Source: Silvibacterium bohemicum
Lineage (GTDB): Bacteria; Acidobacteriota; Terriglobia; Terriglobales; Acidobacteriaceae
Assembly: GCF_001006305.1 (NCBI RefSeq)
Contig: NZ_LBHJ01000001.1
Location: forward strand, 310,001-374,000
Direction of reading: 5' to 3'
DNA: 64,000 bases
In this document: positions 3,838-48,246 of the stretch, one piece after another
Position numbering within the stretch: position 1 is the first letter of the stretch
How the letters are laid out: every line of letters starts with the position of its first letter
Translations under genes and position numbers: made by a program
Notes under the pieces: generated by a model
Database searches by the model: none
What the model was told of the DNA's origin: nothing
The model's input: the letters and a program-made list of their open reading frames with translations, nothing else

Positions 3838-3937
3838 GGTGTAGGGAGCAGGGTGTAGAAAAGCCAAGACAATTTCACGCGCGGAGCATTACCTCCGCCC
3901 CGCCCACTACACCCTAAACCCTGTACCCTACACCCTG
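3838..3937. repeat. GGGTGTAG / CTACACCCTAAACCCTG spacer repeat
   Basis: Two opposed low-complexity tracts flank a 45-base centre: GGGTGTAGGGAGCAGGGTGT on the left and CTACACCC-TAAACCCTG-TACCC-TACACCCTG on the right. It lies just before the stop codon of the minus-strand M16 gene, that is, downstream of it in transcription. Similar tracts occur at 7521-7605 and 43952-43990. The arms could pair, but the sequence resembles a short-unit (GGGTNTA) repeat more than a designed terminator. Confidence 0.6.
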
Positions 3938-3940
3938 CCT

Positions 3941-5316: not shown

Positions 5317-6558
5317 ATGCGCTATGCTGACACCACGGATTCCGGATTTACGATGACGGCTGGCAGGAACAATCTCTACTCCATTTTAGACGCTTTACCA
5401 GCCGTTCCGATTCGTCCCCTTTTTGGCCTTAAAAATGAGGAGCTTAGCGGGATTGCCAAGGAATTTACGGTACCAGAGTACCGTGCCCGGCAGATATCCC
5501 AGGGGCTTTACCGGGTCTGGGTTTCCTCCCTCGACGACATCACTCCGCTGCCTAAATCCTTCCGCGATCAGCTCGCGCAGGCGGGATACGGCATCGGCCT
5601 TCCCCAGATCGCAGAGACATTCAAGTCCATCGACGGAACCGAACGCTATCTCATCGCCGTCGGAGATCCGGGAGCAGGAAGCGCTCAGACGGTGGAGACG
5701 GTCTGGATGCCCGAGGGCGATGACGGCGAAGAAGGCGACGGCTCCGAAGCTGGAAACTTCTCCGCAGCCGTTCCCGGCCACGGCAGAGCCGGCGACGAAG
5801 AGGCCAGCGGCCATCACGACGCCACCATCTGCGTCTCCAGCCAGATCGGCTGTGCCGTCAACTGCCAGTTCTGTCTCACCGCGAAGCTGGGCATCATTCG
5901 CAACCTCACCGCGGGCGAAATCGCCGGACAGGTCGTCGCCGTACTCAAGCGCCACGGCGTGAAGATCGGCCGCGATCGCATCAATCTCGTCTTCATGGGC
6001 ATGGGCGAGCCCTTTCTCAACTACGACGCCTTCATGGACGCGGTGCGCCTGCTGGTCGAAGAGGTGGGCATTGCCGAATCGCGCATGACGGTTTCGACCT
6101 CCGGCATCGTCCCCGGCATCGAGCGCTTCGCCTCGGAGACGGTCCGGCCCAAGCTGGCCATCTCGCTGAATGCCTCGAACGACAAGGTGCGCGAAGAGAT
6201 CATGCCCATCACGCGCAAATGGGATATCGGCGACCTGATGGACGCGGTGCGCAAGGTTCCTCTGCGGCCGCGCGAGCGGGTGACCTTCGAATATGTTCTG
6301 TTAGGCGGAGTGAACGATCAGCCGCAGCACGCGGCGGAGGTGGTCAGGCTGATCCGTCGCGCCGGACTGCCGGCCAAGGTGAATCTCATCGCCTGGAATC
6401 CCGGCCCCGGCATCCCCTACTCGATGCCCGCGCCGGACGACGTTGCGCGTTTTCAGCAGCACCTCATCGAGCACGAAATTCCCGCCTTCGTGCGGCGTCC
6501 GCGCGGCCGGGATATTTACGCCGCCTGCGGCCAGCTCAAGCAAACCGTCGAAGTCTGA
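5317..6558 (+). CDS. rlmN: 23S rRNA (adenine-C2)-methyltransferase RlmN, radical SAM
   Basis: RlmN methylates A2503 of 23S rRNA (and a tRNA adenine) with a radical-SAM mechanism. The 413-residue product shows the CxxxCxxC cluster at Cys179/183/186 (GCAVNCQFC), the two catalytic cysteines Cys172 (TICVSSQIGC) and Cys404 (IYAACGQLKQ), FMGMGEPFLNYD, and STSGIVPGI. Between residues about 133 and 168 there is an acidic and glycine-rich insertion not needed by the fold. ATG at 5353 (MTAGRNNLY) is an alternative start; neither start has an obvious ribosome site. The gene is monocistronic and divergent from the M16 gene. Confidence 0.95.
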   Translation: MRYADTTDSGFTMTAGRNNLYSILDALPAVPIRPLFGLKNEELSGIAKEFTVPEYRARQISQGLYRVWVSSLDDITPLPKSFRDQLAQAGYGIGLPQIAETFKSIDGTERYLIAVGDPGAGSAQTVETVWMPEGDDGEEGDGSEAGNFSAAVPGHGRAGDEEASGHHDATICVSSQIGCAVNCQFCLTAKLGIIRNLTAGEIAGQVVAVLKRHGVKIGRDRINLVFMGMGEPFLNYDAFMDAVRLLVEEVGIAESRMTVSTSGIVPGIERFASETVRPKLAISLNASNDKVREEIMPITRKWDIGDLMDAVRKVPLRPRERVTFEYVLLGGVNDQPQHAAEVVRLIRRAGLPAKVNLIAWNPGPGIPYSMPAPDDVARFQQHLIEHEIPAFVRRPRGRDIYAACGQLKQTVEV

Positions 6559-6791
6559 AGCCGGGCGGACCGCTTGGATTGCGGTCTCGTTTCTTCTGAC
6601 CAAGTTGTTTCGGTTGGCCGCCGCGGCTCCGGACTAGAGACGTGCGGTAGTTTGCGTACCAGCGCGATGGTAGGAATTAGTTCAGGGAAAGCAGGAATCT
6701 TATGGACCTAATTTCACTCATGGTCCGCTTTGCGAAGAGACTCACAAAGCTAAAAGGAAGGAACGCATGAGATGCCTCCCTCCTCTTGCTC

Positions 6792-7514
6792 TCAGTTCTG
6801 GAATCGCCAAAGCGCCACGCCGCCGAAGAGTCCGTCTTCGTTGGAGATGATGGTGACCTGCGGTGGAAGCGTGAAGTTGATCTCAGCGGCGTTGCCTCCG
6901 CCGATATAGAGGTGATCCCAGTTGAAGGTATGCGCCGTCTGCTCAATAGCCTCTTCGAGGAGCTTGTTCCAGCGCTTTTTACCCAGCTTCTTCAGGCCTT
7001 TGCGGCCGAGGTAGTCCTCGTATGTCTTCCCCTTGCGCCAGGGATGATGGCCTAATTCCAGGCCGGGGCAGAGATGGCCGTCAGTGAAGAGCGCCGAGCC
7101 CATGCCGGTGCCGAGGGTGATGGTAAGCTCCACACCTTTGCCGCTGATGGCTCCGTAACCCTGCACCGCAGCATCGTTGGCCAGATGCACGGGCCGTTTC
7201 CAGCGCTTATGCAGCGTGGCCTCGAGGGGGAAGCCGATCCATTCCTTGTCCACATTGGCTGCGGACCATATCTTGCCGCGCTTCACCACGCCGGGAAAAC
7301 CTATCGACACCCGGTCGAAAGCAGGAAGGTGGCTGCGCAGCTTTTCGAGTGCCGCCAGCATCTTCGCGGGAGTCGCGGGCTGCGGAGTAGGCGTGCGCAG
7401 CCTCTCGGAGAGCGGGTTGCCGCGCGCATCCAGAAGCATGACCTTGATGCCGGTGCCGCCAACATCGACAGCCAGAGTAATGGGGTGAGGAAAGTGCTTA
7501 TCGCCTTTAGACAT
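6792..7514 (-). CDS. ppgK: ROK-family kinase, probable polyphosphate glucokinase
   Basis: The product shows the ROK/PpgK pattern: phosphate-binding LAVDVGGTGIKVMLLD at the N-terminus, GFPGVVKRGKIWSAANVDKEWIGF, catalytic HLANDAAVQGYG, TLGTGMGSALFTDG and the C-terminal HLYIGGGNA. The lack of the usual ROK CxCGxxGC zinc motif and the WxxFPL-type segment fit PpgK, which phosphorylates glucose from polyphosphate or ATP. The open frame reaches 7553, but this upstream part is translated CCCTAAACCC repeat, so ATG at 7514 (MSKGDKHFPHPITLAVD) is preferred. Substrate and donor are inferred from family only. Confidence 0.82.
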   Translation of the reverse strand: MSKGDKHFPHPITLAVDVGGTGIKVMLLDARGNPLSERLRTPTPQPATPAKMLAALEKLRSHLPAFDRVSIGFPGVVKRGKIWSAANVDKEWIGFPLEATLHKRWKRPVHLANDAAVQGYGAISGKGVELTITLGTGMGSALFTDGHLCPGLELGHHPWRKGKTYEDYLGRKGLKKLGKKRWNKLLEEAIEQTAHTFNWDHLYIGGGNAAEINFTLPPQVTIISNEDGLFGGVALWRFQN

Positions 7515-7520
7515 AAGTTC

Positions 7521-7605
7521 AGGAAGTAGGGTATAGGGATGGGGGGACAGCATACAAGCGCGCCGTGGCTTCTACACCCTCCGCCCTACCCCCTAAACCC
7601 TGCTC
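7521..7605. repeat. TAGGGTATAGGG / CTACACCCT spacer repeat
   Basis: The gap between the kinase start and the anti-sigma stop is filled by AAGTAGGGTATAGGGATGGG on the left and CTACACCCTCCGCCCTACCC-CCTAAACCCTG on the right. The layout matches the 3838-3937 element: opposed tracts around a short unique centre, immediately downstream of the stop of a minus-strand gene. Confidence 0.6.
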
Positions 7606-8412
7606 TCAAGATCCGGCCATCACGATCGGCAGTGTTGGCGTGTTTGATCCCTGTGCATCTTCGATGGTCACGCCGAAGGCCTTCGCCTCTACGCCCTCAG
7701 GCAGCTGCGGCAATACCACTGAGGCACTGCCCGTCGCGTCCGGACGGAAGAGACCTGCGGGAATCGGAGCTTTTCCATTCGCGGGGATGAGCCACAGCTC
7801 ATAGGTTTTCTCCGGCTTCACCGGGTGCAGATTGCTCGCGACGAAGATCAGCGCGCCCTTGCTGGGTAGATAGGTAGCGTGTCCTACCGGCTGCGCAGGC
7901 TGCTTGGTCTCGGTAAGCGTGACTTGTTTCGCCGCCGGTGAAGTCAGCGCGTCGGTCAGCTCCTGGGCGCGATCGGCCTGCGCCGATAGCTGTGCGATAT
8001 CCGATTGATCTTTCCCAAGCTGCTGCTTGAGCTGCTGGCTCTCATATCCGAAGTAGACGGCAACGGCGATGGCCGCGAAGGCGGTCACCCATCCCAGCCA
8101 GCCCAGGCCCGAGCCCGGCTTGCGACCAGCTGAGACAACTGCAGGCTCAGCCTTGGCGCTCCGCCCCAGAGTAGTTTCCTGAGGAGTATTCGCGATGTGC
8201 GCCATAAAGCGTTGCTGTGCGCCCGCGGGAAGTGCCTGTTGCTCGACGCTCAATCCGAGCAGGGCATCCTCCGCAAGAATATCGCGCAAGGCCGCCTTGC
8301 AAGCCGCGCACCCTTGCAGGTGGTCGCGTACCTCGGTCTGCTCCTCAGGCGTGAGCGCCTGCATGGAGTAGAGCGCGAGATCTTCTTGCGAGATGTGCTT
8401 GGCGCCGTTCAC
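7606..8412 (-). CDS. Anti-sigma-K factor RskA-like transmembrane protein with zinc-finger N-terminus
   Basis: The 268-residue product has an N-terminal anti-sigma domain with the HxxxCxxC zinc motif (HLQGCAACKAAL), a single membrane segment near residues 105-122 (LGWLGWVTAFAAIAVAVYFGY), a short heptad-like stretch (SQQLKQQLGKDQSDIAQLSA), and an extracytoplasmic RskA domain (YELWLIPANGKAPIPAGLF, GVTIEDAQGSNTPT). It should hold the ECF sigma factor encoded immediately upstream at the membrane until proteolysis releases it. Its start overlaps the sigma stop by four bases (8409-8412). Confidence 0.9.
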   Translation of the reverse strand: MNGAKHISQEDLALYSMQALTPEEQTEVRDHLQGCAACKAALRDILAEDALLGLSVEQQALPAGAQQRFMAHIANTPQETTLGRSAKAEPAVVSAGRKPGSGLGWLGWVTAFAAIAVAVYFGYESQQLKQQLGKDQSDIAQLSAQADRAQELTDALTSPAAKQVTLTETKQPAQPVGHATYLPSKGALIFVASNLHPVKPEKTYELWLIPANGKAPIPAGLFRPDATGSASVVLPQLPEGVEAKAFGVTIEDAQGSNTPTLPIVMAGS

Positions 8413-9147: not shown

Positions 9148-9918
9148 ATGAAGTGCCGCCTGGACAAGTTGCTTGTAGATCGCGGCTTAACCCCCTCCCG
9201 GGAACGGGCGCAAGCGCTCATTCTAGCTGGCCGCGTTCTGGTGGACGAGCAGAAATTCGAAAAGCCGGGTACTTCCGTTTCACCCGACGCAAATGTGAGG
9301 TTGCTCGGCGAGGATCTGCGTTATGTAAGCCGTGGCGGACTCAAGCTCGAAGCTGCGTTGCAGCACTGGAAAATCGAGCTTGGAGGGAAGTTCTGTCTCG
9401 ATGTGGGCGCATCGACCGGCGGCTTCACCGACTGCATGCTGCAGCACGGAGCCGCAAAGGTGCTCGCCGTCGACACCGGCTATGGGCAGATCGCGCAAAA
9501 GCTGCGCAGCGATCCTCGAGTGGCTTTAATGGAGCGCACGAACGCCCGCAAGCTTGCTCCCGGAGAACTGCCACCCGGCATCCGGTTTCTCTCGATGGAC
9601 GTCTCGTTCATCTCGGCAACGCTGGTGCTCCCGGCCGTCGTCGCCGCTGCGGCTGCGGGGCCGGAGGGTCTGGAAGCGGTGGTGCTGGTCAAGCCCCAGT
9701 TCGAGGCAGGCCGCGAGCATATCGGCAAGGGCGGCATCGTACGCGATCCCGCTGCTCACCAGCTGGCCATCGATCGGGTGCGGGATTGTGTGATCGCGCT
9801 CGGCGCAGTCGAGATCGAAGTGATCGATTCCCCCATTCAAGGTGCAGAGGGAAATCACGAGTTTCTGTTGCGCGCGTTGATCCCCTCCCTGACAACAAAA
9901 AATTGCCAGCTCTCATGA
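9148..9918 (+). CDS. tlyA: TlyA-family rRNA 2'-O-methyltransferase / putative hemolysin
   Basis: The product, about 256 residues from ATG 9148 (MKCRLDKLLVDRGL), has an N-terminal S4 RNA-binding domain (SRERAQALILAGRVLVDEQ) followed by an FtsJ-like SAM methyltransferase domain: SRGGLKLEAAL, CLDVGASTGGFTDCMLQHGA (SAM motif I), VDTGYGQI, SMDVSFISATLVLP and LVKPQFEAG. In mycobacteria TlyA methylates C1409 of 16S and C1920 of 23S rRNA; the hemolysin label is historical. The upstream ATG at 9112 is less likely because homologues begin at the MxxRLDxLL segment. Confidence 0.9.
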   Translation: MKCRLDKLLVDRGLTPSRERAQALILAGRVLVDEQKFEKPGTSVSPDANVRLLGEDLRYVSRGGLKLEAALQHWKIELGGKFCLDVGASTGGFTDCMLQHGAAKVLAVDTGYGQIAQKLRSDPRVALMERTNARKLAPGELPPGIRFLSMDVSFISATLVLPAVVAAAAAGPEGLEAVVLVKPQFEAGREHIGKGGIVRDPAAHQLAIDRVRDCVIALGAVEIEVIDSPIQGAEGNHEFLLRALIPSLTTKNCQLS

Positions 9919-9948
9919 GAACGATGAGCCCTGGTTGCTGAGAAATTC

Positions 9949-10050
9949 TTGGTCTTGGAAGGGTACGGCCTTCAGGCCGTACGTAGATCAGGCAAAAGGA
10001 GCGCGGCTTCAGCCGCTGAGGGAACTCCCCTAAGGTCCATTATCAATCTC
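9949..10050 (+). repeat. Tandem-hairpin REP-like element, copy 1
   Basis: Head TTGGTCTTGGAAGGG, then hairpin 1 TACGGCCTTCAGGCCGTA (stem with TTCA loop), linker ACGTAGATCAGGCAAAAGGA, hairpin 2 GCGGCTTCAGCCGC, then CTGAGGGAACTCCCC and a tail TAAGGTCC-ATTATCAATCT. The same order recurs at 16321, 38151 and 47891. It lies 30 bases after tlyA. The apparent reading frame across it (EGYGLQAVR) is repeat-derived. Confidence 0.85.
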
Positions 10051-10153
10051 AGCTTTCGTGAGAACGAAGAGCTGTCGTTCCATGGCAACGGAATCTCTTC
10101 GCGGGGCATCCAGACACTCGGCGTGTGTGTGCGGGATTTTTGGCCGCGAAGGG

Positions 10154-16293: not shown

Positions 16294-16318
16294 AGCCCGG
16301 ATAGCTATCCGGGCTTTT
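16294..16318 (+). terminator. Terminator after tsf
   Basis: AGCCCGGAT (16294-16302), loop AGCT, ATCCGGGCT (16307-16315) and TTTT, 27 bases after the tsf stop. Confidence 0.75.
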
Positions 16319-16320
16319 GC

Positions 16321-16445
16321 TGCTGACAAAGTCTTGCTCTTTGAAGGGTACGGCCTTCAGGCCGTACGTAAATCAAGCAAGATGAGTGCGGCTTTAGCCA
16401 CTGAGGGAACACCCCGCTCGCACTCAAAGGTTGGTCATCGATCTC
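16321..16445 (+). repeat. Tandem-hairpin REP-like element, copy 2
   Basis: Head TGCTGACAAAGTCTTGCTCTT-TGAAGGG, hairpin 1 TACGGCCTTCAGGCCGTA, linker CGTAAATCAAGCAAGATGAG, hairpin 2 degenerated (GCGGCTTTAGCCAC), CTGAGGGAACACCCCGCTCG, tail AAGGTTGGTCATCGATCT. Same orientation as copy 1. It is sandwiched between two terminators after tsf. Confidence 0.85.
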
Positions 16446-16477
16446 GCCCGGATAGCCATTCCGGGCTTGTTTTTTTT
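16446..16477 (+). terminator. Second terminator after tsf
   Basis: GCCCGGA (16446-16452) and TCCGGGC (16460-16466) followed by TTGTTTTTTTT. Its stem sequence resembles that of the first terminator at 16294, as if the REP element had inserted into or been bracketed by a duplicated terminator. Confidence 0.7.
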
Positions 16478-38031: not shown

Positions 38032-38089
38032 CATCGGGAAATTTGCGACAAAGGGAAGCGCAGGGCAAATGCTCTCTGGGTTCAGGCCG

Positions 38090-38276
38090 CTGACCAAGCC
38101 TTAGCCTTGGAAGGGCACGGCCTTCAGGCCATGCGCAAATTGTGCCGATGTTGCTGACCAAGCCCTGGTCTTGGAAGGGTACGGCCTTCAGGCCGTACGT
38201 AAACGAGCAAAATGAGTGCGGCTTCAGCCGCTGAGGGAACGCCCCGCTCGCACTGCTAAGGTTCTTCATCAATCTG
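38090..38276 (+). repeat. Tandem-hairpin REP-like elements, copies 3a (partial) and 3b (complete)
   Basis: 3a (38090-38140): GCTGACCAAGCCTTAGCCTT-GGAAGGG then CACGGCCTTCAGGCCATGC, ending before hairpin 2. 3b (38151-38276): GCTGACCAAGCCCTGGTCTT-GGAAGGG, TACGGCCTTCAGGCCGTA, linker, GTGCGGCTTCAGCCGCTGAG, GGAACGCCCCGCTCGCACTG and tail TAAGGTTCTTCATCAATCT. The 317-base gap between ftsB-like and the next gene holds nothing else recognisable. Confidence 0.85.
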
Positions 38277-38348
38277 ATCCCAGGGCGAACCCGCCTGGGC
38301 TTTTCTGTTTTAGCGCGCAGAAGCCGGGCCTTCTATACTGCTTGAGGA

Positions 38349-43907: not shown

Positions 43908-43948
43908 TCAAAAAGCAAAACGGGCAACGCCAAAGAAGGCCTTGCCCG
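43908..43948 (-). terminator. Minus-strand terminator of the M16 pair
   Basis: CGGGCAA-GCC at 43921-43931 and GGC-TTGCCCG at 43938-43948 form an interrupted stem with an AAAGAA loop; reading the minus strand it is followed by TTTTGCTTTTTG (43908-43919). Confidence 0.65.
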
Positions 43949-43951
43949 CCA

Positions 43952-43990
43952 AACCGCTAAACCCTAAAACCTATCCCCGACACCCTATCG
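43952..43990. repeat. CTAAACCCTAAAACC spacer repeat
   Basis: CCGCTAAACCCTAAAACCTA-TCCCCGACACCCTATCG lies directly downstream (in transcription) of the M16 stop, third example of the CCCTAAACCCT/TACACCCT family seen at 3838 and 7521. Here only the right-hand tract is present. Confidence 0.5.
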
Positions 43991-47742: not shown

Positions 47743-47842
47743 TGCATGTCTCCTGGCAGCGGGCACGATCGGCGTGGCCCTGGTGAGTTTTTAAAAGCTA
47801 CAGTATGCGCGCGAACAACGAAAGTATCGCATCGATAACCAG

Positions 47843-48001
47843 GTCTCGGTCTTGGAAGAGTACGGCAAGCTGTACCTAGATCAAGAAACTTGCTCTTGGT
47901 AGGTACGGCCTTCAGGCCGTACGTTAATTAAGCAAAACGAATGAGGCTTCAGCCGCTGAGGGAACGCCCCGGTTCGCGCTACAAAGGTTCGTCATAAATC
48001 T
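47843..48001 (+). repeat. Tandem-hairpin REP-like elements, copies 4a (degenerate) and 4b (complete)
   Basis: 4a (47843-47886): GTCTCGGTCTTGGAAGAG, then TACGGCAAGCTGTAC, a decayed hairpin 1. 4b (47891-48001): TTGCTCTTGGTAGG, TACGGCCTTCAGGCCGTA, linker, GAGGCTTCAGCCGCTGAGGG, AACGCCCCGG and tail AAAGGTTCGTCATAAATCT. As at 38090, a partial copy precedes a complete one. Confidence 0.82.
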
Positions 48002-48108: not shown

Positions 48109-48158
48109 GTGAGGCTTCAGCCTCACGAAGAGTCCAGCCAACGGAAGGGCTTCAGCCC
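48109..48158 (+). repeat. Pair of TTCA-loop hairpins upstream of the DoxX-like gene
   Basis: GTGAGGC-TTCA-GCCTCAC (48109-48126, perfect 7-bp stem) and GGGC-TTCA-GCCC (48147-48158). Same loop and GGC/GCC closing pairs as the REP-like elements but different flanks, so a related family or a remnant. The rest of the 504-base gap between 47743 and 48246 has no gene that I can support. Confidence 0.6.
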
Positions 48159-48246
48159 CGGGCCTTTGCTTTCTAAACTTGACTCATCTAAGGAGATCAA
48201 TGCGGCGAATCGCGATCGGGGGCCGCTCTGCTACCGTTAACGACAT

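Follow-up and report, generated by a model that had tools for sequence, protein, structure and literature searches.

A TIRYT group has been described in Acidobacteria (accessible part of PMC3733652). According to the available sections of PMC4923244, IS1272/TnSha1, of the IS1182 family, targets hairpins, including terminators, with little primary-sequence specificity, and the blunt cuts of IS1272 remove part of the hairpin and leave no duplication. In the IS1202 group, the target duplications measure 16–28 or 24–29 bp; the portions of the two sources at hand state that no specific target was found for this long-duplication group and give the ends of its Acinetobacter relatives as TGT..ACA (PMC10132070, PMC10045372). 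Insertion sequences that target REPs include IS1397, ISPpu9 and ISNm1106, with IS5 among five families concerned, as far as the accessible text of PMC1525189 goes. Here we describe a short repeat of Silvibacterium bohemicum that resembles each of these in part; a literature search, which reached few subscription papers, found no published description of it.

Anatomy and distribution of the element

The window analysed here is a stretch of 64,000 nucleotides (C1:310001-374000) of the 6.46 Mb genome. A preliminary description of the window had reported four complete copies of a tandem-hairpin element, all on the plus strand and all intergenic, and we found the same: hairpin 1, TACGGCCTTCAGGCCGTA, is exact at 9964, 16349, 38180 and 47904, always on the + strand, and each of the four sites falls between likely genes: one past an FtsJ-like gene, one past tsf, one ahead of a GH10 gene and one in a gap whose neighbouring ORFs have no Pfam match. 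Degenerate forms of hairpin 1 occur at 38116 (+) and 15394 (−), and allowing up to three mismatches gives 10 matches in the window when reverse reads are counted (0.03 expected from shuffled sequence). Hairpin 2 starts 38–39 nt past the start of hairpin 1, at 10003, 16388, 38218 and 47943 with 0–2 mismatches; it is a short pattern and thus provides weaker evidence (12 matches in the window, 2.2 expected). A repeat search of the window recovered the same four copies, 95 nt each. No tRNA genes were found in the window.

The unit is about 126 bp long and consists of a left end (GTTGCTGACAAAGTC), hairpin 1, a linker, hairpin 2, TGAGGGAAC and a right end (AAGGTTCGTCATCAATCTC), the end sequences of the element being GTTGCTGACAAAG / GTCATCAATCTC. 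When copies are aligned with their flanks, the consensus order is GTTGCTGACAAAGTCTTGGTCTTGGAAGGG, hairpin 1, CGTAAATCAAGCAAAATGAG, hairpin 2, TGAGGGAACGCCCCGCTCGCAC and the right end CAAAGGTTCGTCATCAATCT, mostly followed by C. In the aligned copies both hairpins carry a TTCA-like loop and lie on the same strand in the same direction, not inverted. The consensus ahead of hairpin 1 is GGAAGGG, and the GT(A/G)G head is absent at the hairpin foot. By eye, the outer ends show an inverted likeness at about 12 of 18 consensus positions; we grade them as weak inverted repeats because, copy by copy, the likeness beats 97.5% of shuffles in only 5 of 23.

Copy 1 (9934..10049, +; 116 bp) has hairpin 1 at 9964-9981, hairpin 2 at 10003-10016 and an internal deletion past hairpin 2; an alternative longer ORF of the upstream gene would finish 8 bp within it. 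Copy 2 (16319..16444, +; 126 bp) lies downstream of tsf, with its hairpins at 16349-16366 and 16388-16401. Copy 3 (38150..38275, +; 126 bp), the copy named in the preliminary description, has hairpin 1 at 38180-38197 and hairpin 2 at 38218-38231. The head and tail proposed earlier do lie in the unit, which is longer than was claimed, and the range 38090-38276 given for it contains one full copy together with a partial module, a left end plus degenerate hairpin 1 that repeat search and BLAST place ahead of copy 3 at 38089..38139 (+). Copy 4 (47837..48001, +; 165 bp) carries two hairpin 1 modules, the first degenerate, with hairpin 1 at 47904-47921 and hairpin 2 at 47943-47956. A TTCA double hairpin of another type (GTGAGGCTTCAGCCTCAC ... 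GGGCTTCAGCCC) lies about 100 bp past copy 4, at 48109-48159, and degenerate repeats resembling CACCCTAAACCCT occur at 3893-3939, 7558-7618 and 43943-43989 of the window.

Further copies, on which the reading as a dispersed repeat depended, are plentiful: a BLAST search of the whole genome with copy 3 (38150-38275) returned 35 places including itself, at 71–100% identity, and hairpin 1 is exact at 13 places in the genome (zero in the control). We read 30 of the 35 places as loci, and five of these have the double-hairpin core without outer ends. Copies with a single hairpin 1 module measure 116–138 bp; five copies have two or four such modules, so that the number per copy ranges from 1 to 4. 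Orientation is uniform along long stretches, yet both strands are used, and the all-plus arrangement thus holds inside the window and fails genome-wide. The intergenic position fares better: compared with crude gene calls, nearly all of 28 copies are intergenic, one core-only copy falling inside a called ORF, and in 21 of the 27 copies counted in the gene-context tally the upstream gene is co-oriented with the element (two-sided p 0.006), the other six being opposite. The element strand is also the C-rich strand in 20 of 26 S. bohemicum stretches, a possible replication-strand bias from which we draw no conclusion because these stretches are local, with some of them adjacent or overlapping, and because gene direction is a confounder. 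Near one element copy lies a tandem array (L089 ~6010-7050, C4:43010 onwards) whose period is about 185 bp.

Duplicated hairpins at the borders

Flanks were compared for 23 of the 30 loci read, leaving out the five core-only copies (L047, L048, L049, L053, L054) and the partial upstream modules (L050, L052); element ends were placed by hand, and the right end is absent from L040 and L041. The two flanks of the same copy resembled each other far more than flanks swapped between copies (mean score 21.2 versus 12.9; none of 20000 permutations reached the same level). When only 34 nt of flank were used, a direct repeat brackets 11 of the 23 copies above the 97.5th percentile of swapped pairs; these repeats are 20–28 nt long and are separated from the border by 0–6 nt on the left and 0–3 nt on the right. 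By reading, 10 of the 11 are palindromic and usually a terminator (L039 is not clearly palindromic), and in nine the right hairpin begins 0–1 nt past the element. The hairpins at the duplicated sites are intact and doubled, with no stem loss. Across the 23 copies, the flanks fold with means of −12.1 (left) and −12.8 kcal/mol (right) versus −7.8 kcal/mol for local controls, and 9 of 23 on each side fall within the lowest 5% of the control. The remaining 12 of the 23 copies, among them copies 3 and 4, have no significant duplication. For about half of the copies, insertion with duplication has good support.

In the window, copy 1 is bracketed by its duplicated target hairpin, the left copy of which, CAGCTCTCATGAGAACGATGAGC, occupies 9907..9929 (+) and scores 17 with the right flank (best swapped pair, 14); the right copy lies at 10050..10072 (+), its fold beginning at the first base past the element. 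Copy 2 stands between two copies of the tsf terminator hairpin, the left one, GCCCGGATAGCTATCCGGGCTT, at 16295..16316 (+) and the right one, identified by flank alignment and followed by a T tract, at 16446..16468 (+). Past copy 3, sequence and folding point to a terminator-like hairpin, CAGGGCGAACCCGCCTGGG then CTTTT, at 38281..38299 (+), with a weak left duplicate at 38061..38080 (+). This copy entered the flank set with its inner left border, and its outer left flank, scored separately, reached 9.0, the 95th percentile of swapped flanks and hence borderline. No significant flanking duplication was found for copy 4 (47837-48001).

Do such pairs also occur away from the element? A gapless test for spaced direct repeats over 498 kb of S. 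bohemicum DNA (25 stretches, with L082, L104 and L105 left out), which picks up just 5 of the 11 duplications, found 31 repeats. By reading, terminator-like pairs among the 31 occur only at element copies (four flagged, plus L046, which is outside the script's pattern). The remainder comprise tandem arrays, coding-like repeats, one REP-like pair and a single repeat adjoining an element copy.

Orthologous sites were read in relatives. Downstream of tsf, the four readable genomes of the same genus (G001, G002, G004 and G008; G003, G005 and G007 were left out) have a single terminator and lack the element. The region was fetched from 80 relatives and read in 22; all 22 lack both the element and a same-sequence terminator pair after tsf. 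In 15 of the 22 the stretch scanned downstream of tsf holds exactly one strong hairpin, in the other seven it does not, and one relative has a TTCA-type hairpin further downstream. Only 2 of the 11 duplicated sites are comparable with relatives. At the C1:794650 site, G002 has one terminator, with a similar stem, ahead of the downstream gene, and the upstream gene is unmatched there. At C16:148356 and C1:793036, sites without duplication in S. bohemicum, the element is absent in G001.

The double-hairpin core, RAYT genes and IS5-type MITEs

A model of the unit matched 294 of 398 same-family genomes at E ≤0.001. With 8 candidates scored per genome, relatives reached at most 80.3 bits among the matches listed, versus 137–153 bits for 8 S. 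bohemicum copies. A DNA search of 61 relatives gave matches in 14 genomes, those of other genomes covering at most part of the unit, and the 29 loci read in relatives contain no outer ends of the S. bohemicum type; the full-length unit was found in one genome only.

Inverted pairs of the core, with stems that differ in part, stand around RAYT genes in two genomes, one of the same genus and one a named Acidobacterium MAG. In the same-genus genome G008 (L121), a RAYT frame (NF047646, 92.1 bits, cut-off 80) is preceded by the double hairpin and followed by an inverted one. At L279, a locus retrieved because of tsf rather than the core, a RAYT (102.9 bits) has inverted double hairpins with other stems on both sides. 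The earlier statement that no transposase is present, made of the window, does not carry over to the S. bohemicum genome, which has two RAYT matches. One of them, at L055 1462-1932 (C4:849185; 105.6 bits), seems to have its C-terminus out of frame; we rejected it as the cognate enzyme, as it is flanked by unrelated inverted GGGTGCCCCATCCTT... repeats. The other, at L056 1150-1800 (C12:134161), is a frameshifted remnant (55.2 bits, under the cut-off of 80) with inverted double TTCA hairpins on both sides, whose GGGGCC stems are unlike those of the element. The suggested search for a genome-encoded RAYT turned up a broken gene beside similar hairpins with other stems, and a second RAYT whose repeats are unrelated.

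Of six RAYT loci in the fetched DNA, three have double TTCA hairpins, L055 and L177 have other repeats, and L322 is unjudged; the core can therefore be assigned to one RAYT group as its repeat. As an acidobacterial repeat of RAYT type, the double TTCA-hairpin core is family-wide. None of the RAYT loci read has the full 126-bp unit next to the gene.

The end AGGTTGCGGAAAAACTC matches, with at most one mismatch, in 65 of 200 same-family genomes (12 for the reversed control). From 40 stretches we obtained 16 complete sister-genus MITEs with both ends (G206, G136, G200, G127, G193, G117, G083 and G187), leaving out L216, at a contig end, and L209. An exact 4-bp duplication accompanies 12 of the 16, versus 21 of 240 swapped pairs; the flanks of L209 mismatch by eye, so that its inclusion gives 12 of 17, and L184, L185 and L186 have common flanks and are not independent. 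Eight of the 16 lie in a 4-nt hairpin loop (stem ≥3 bp), and eight contain, by eye, the double-hairpin core. An autonomous element (L208, in G193) has CTAG on each side, ends that match those of the sister-genus MITEs, and an IS5-family transposase of 362 aa (285.9 bits with NF033581, cut-off 140; 210.9 with the IS1182 model, below the cut-off of 270). By eye, the S. bohemicum left end with its usual preceding CAG is identical to the sister-genus MITE end at 15 of 18 positions, and in G034 copies an IS5-type end is joined to a right part like that of S. bohemicum.

For the S. bohemicum subfamily the IS5 link is weak, because IS5-type duplications are 4 bp, not 20–28 bp. A search of the S. bohemicum genome for an IS5 relative gave 0 matches, which shows little since the query was one IS5 protein. 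Nor was an autonomous partner with the same ends found in this genome, and there is no clear surplus of ends: the right end gave one unplaced match, the long left end none, and the short left end 38 against 13 in the control (counts only, the extra places not being read). Five loci of the same family (L308, L310, L319, L320, L322) carry another MITE-like type, with ends approximating TAAGGARNCTCTGATTAAGTC and the same double-hairpin core. Across the MITE-like types, the ends seem to change while the core stays. The loop of one REP-like hairpin contains an inserted 242-bp MITE that has IS5-type ends and, internally, long inverted repeats (L200 1080-1322).

A probable hairpin-targeting insertion unit and its relatives

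What kind of element is this? Since the core is enclosed in extra ends, the hairpins at the borders are duplicated in about half of the copies, upstream genes are mostly co-oriented with the element, and the tsf sites of the relatives read are element-free, with a single terminator in the four of the same genus, we conclude that it is probably a non-autonomous, MITE-like insertion unit, with a RAYT-type double-hairpin body between ends recognised by a transposase, that inserts at hairpins, mostly terminators, and duplicates them. The transposase would recognise targets able to form a hairpin, in the typical case a gene's intrinsic terminator, and would also recognise the outer ends; no such enzyme was found in the S. 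bohemicum genome. Both strands would be cut at opposite bases of the target hairpin and the element joined; repair of the gap would copy the hairpin and so leave one on each side of the element. The enzyme may be a DDE transposase, perhaps IS5-like as in the sister genera, and, to judge from the insertion products, the target may be cut while extruded as a hairpin. Retention of the terminator may have made insertions tolerable, and the hairpin 1 module would have been amplified in tandem in some copies.

The preliminary description had recognised the architecture of REP/BIMEs mobilised by RAYTs. Were the element an ordinary REP/BIME, a RAYT, an HUH transposase acting on single strands, would have spread the copies via their hairpins, and the ends and the flanking hairpins would be incidental. 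The core does fit this view, as its copies flank the RAYT genes of relatives in inverted pairs (G008, L279), a broken RAYT in the S. bohemicum genome has double TTCA hairpins, the 1–4 hairpin 1 modules per copy recall mosaic elements, and core-only copies make up five of the 30 read. The whole unit does not: it reaches beyond the RAYT-flanking core to conserved ends, its hairpins run in the same direction without a GT(A/G)G head, the hairpin stems at the local RAYT are unlike its own, and two of the six RAYT loci bear other repeats (L055, L177). Moreover, to our knowledge direct repeats of 20–28 bp, such as stand at both borders, are neither predicted by RAYT dispersal of REPs nor left by HUH insertion. 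We therefore consider it unlikely that an ordinary REP/BIME accounts for the unit. It is more doubtful still that the double terminators existed before the element landed between them, or that the second terminator copy arose later by slippage or conversion. That 7 of 22 relatives depart from exactly one strong hairpin downstream of tsf, and that only 2 of the 11 duplicated sites could be compared, counts in favour of such a history, but both terminator copies are locus-specific near-copies, a repeated same-sequence terminator follows tsf in no relative read, and the limited-sensitivity test of 498 kb found no terminator-like pair away from the elements.

A function of the sequence itself explains less. 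Most copies lie past gene ends on the transcribed strand, and the consensus of 16 aligned copies holds both hairpins, as would be expected of a conserved 3′-UTR RNA element (an mRNA stabiliser or riboregulator) whose hairpins are under selection at these genes. Two-sided changes, however, occur in just 2 of 16 pairs, on which ground we rejected strong RNA covariation; in 4 of 16 sequences one base pair of hairpin 2 is lost, and the element is missing from the orthologous sites compared. The window has no Rfam match at gathering thresholds, and an Rfam family there was likewise rejected. A conserved RNA role is accordingly very improbable. Open frames across the copies (EGYGLQAVR...) had been flagged as prone to misannotation as proteins, and rightly so: of 23 copies, 13 keep this frame open throughout the element and 10 have a stop in it, and both the lengths and the hairpin spacing vary by 1–2 nt. 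We rejected the frame as coding, and the chance that the element is a fragment of a translated protein family is negligible.

If insertion with hairpin duplication is the correct reading, it would explain the low-harm spread of a small element, which settles immediately beyond a gene and duplicates its terminator, leaving a terminator in place. The reading also brings RAYT repeats and DDE MITEs, usually treated apart, together in one bacterial family. Cutting of the target in its extruded hairpin form would be a single explanation for the 4-bp loop sites and the whole-hairpin sites alike. A broader scheme is possible, and we offer it tentatively: a transposition system may target extruded DNA hairpins as such, with the duplication corresponding to the hairpin here and to the 4-nt loop in the sister genera, in which case DDE-transposon ends would have taken up RAYT-type repeats to form hybrid REP/MITE elements. 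If hairpins are the target, every insertion would add landing sites, since the elements bear the same kind of TTCA hairpin. The hairpin as target is testable because the length of the duplication should follow the hairpin.

Where does the element stand among described systems? Of the features of GTAG-type REPs, it has short, palindromic, dispersed and intergenic hairpins and a core inverted around RAYT genes (L121, L279); it lacks the GT(A/G)G head and the alternating unit orientation of REP/BIMEs. As in MITEs, the unit is short, dispersed and gene-free, with a target-site duplication (11 of 23 copies, 20–28 nt). The core that flanks the RAYTs of L121 and L279 is non-GTAG and partly self-complementary, and we liken it to TIRYT repeats on these features. 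As described in the accessible parts of PMC3733652, PMC2817692 and PMC6006769, TIRtrons/TIRYT and RAYT-associated REPs share with it partly self-complementary repeats inverted around RAYT genes; the S. bohemicum unit differs from them in its extra ends, its terminator duplications, its same-direction hairpins and its lack of a GT(A/G)G head. The sister-genus IS5-family MITEs resemble it in the core (8 of 16) and, by eye, in the left end (15 of 18 identical), and differ in their 4-bp duplications, often at hairpin-loop sites, and their clean inverted repeats. REP-targeting insertion sequences have insertion into palindromic repeats in common with it; in the available text of PMC1525189 these land within REPs, whereas the S. 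bohemicum element duplicates terminators and itself bears REP-like hairpins. With IS1272/TnSha1, as far as PMC4923244 could be consulted, it has the hairpin target in common, but it duplicates the hairpin and carries no gene. Compared by duplication length, ends and target with the IS1202 group, in the sections of PMC10132070 and PMC10045372 at hand, it has duplications of about the same length (20–28 nt). Within the compass of these sources, the S. bohemicum element is thus like the IS1202 group in duplication length and like IS1272 in target, and fully matches neither.
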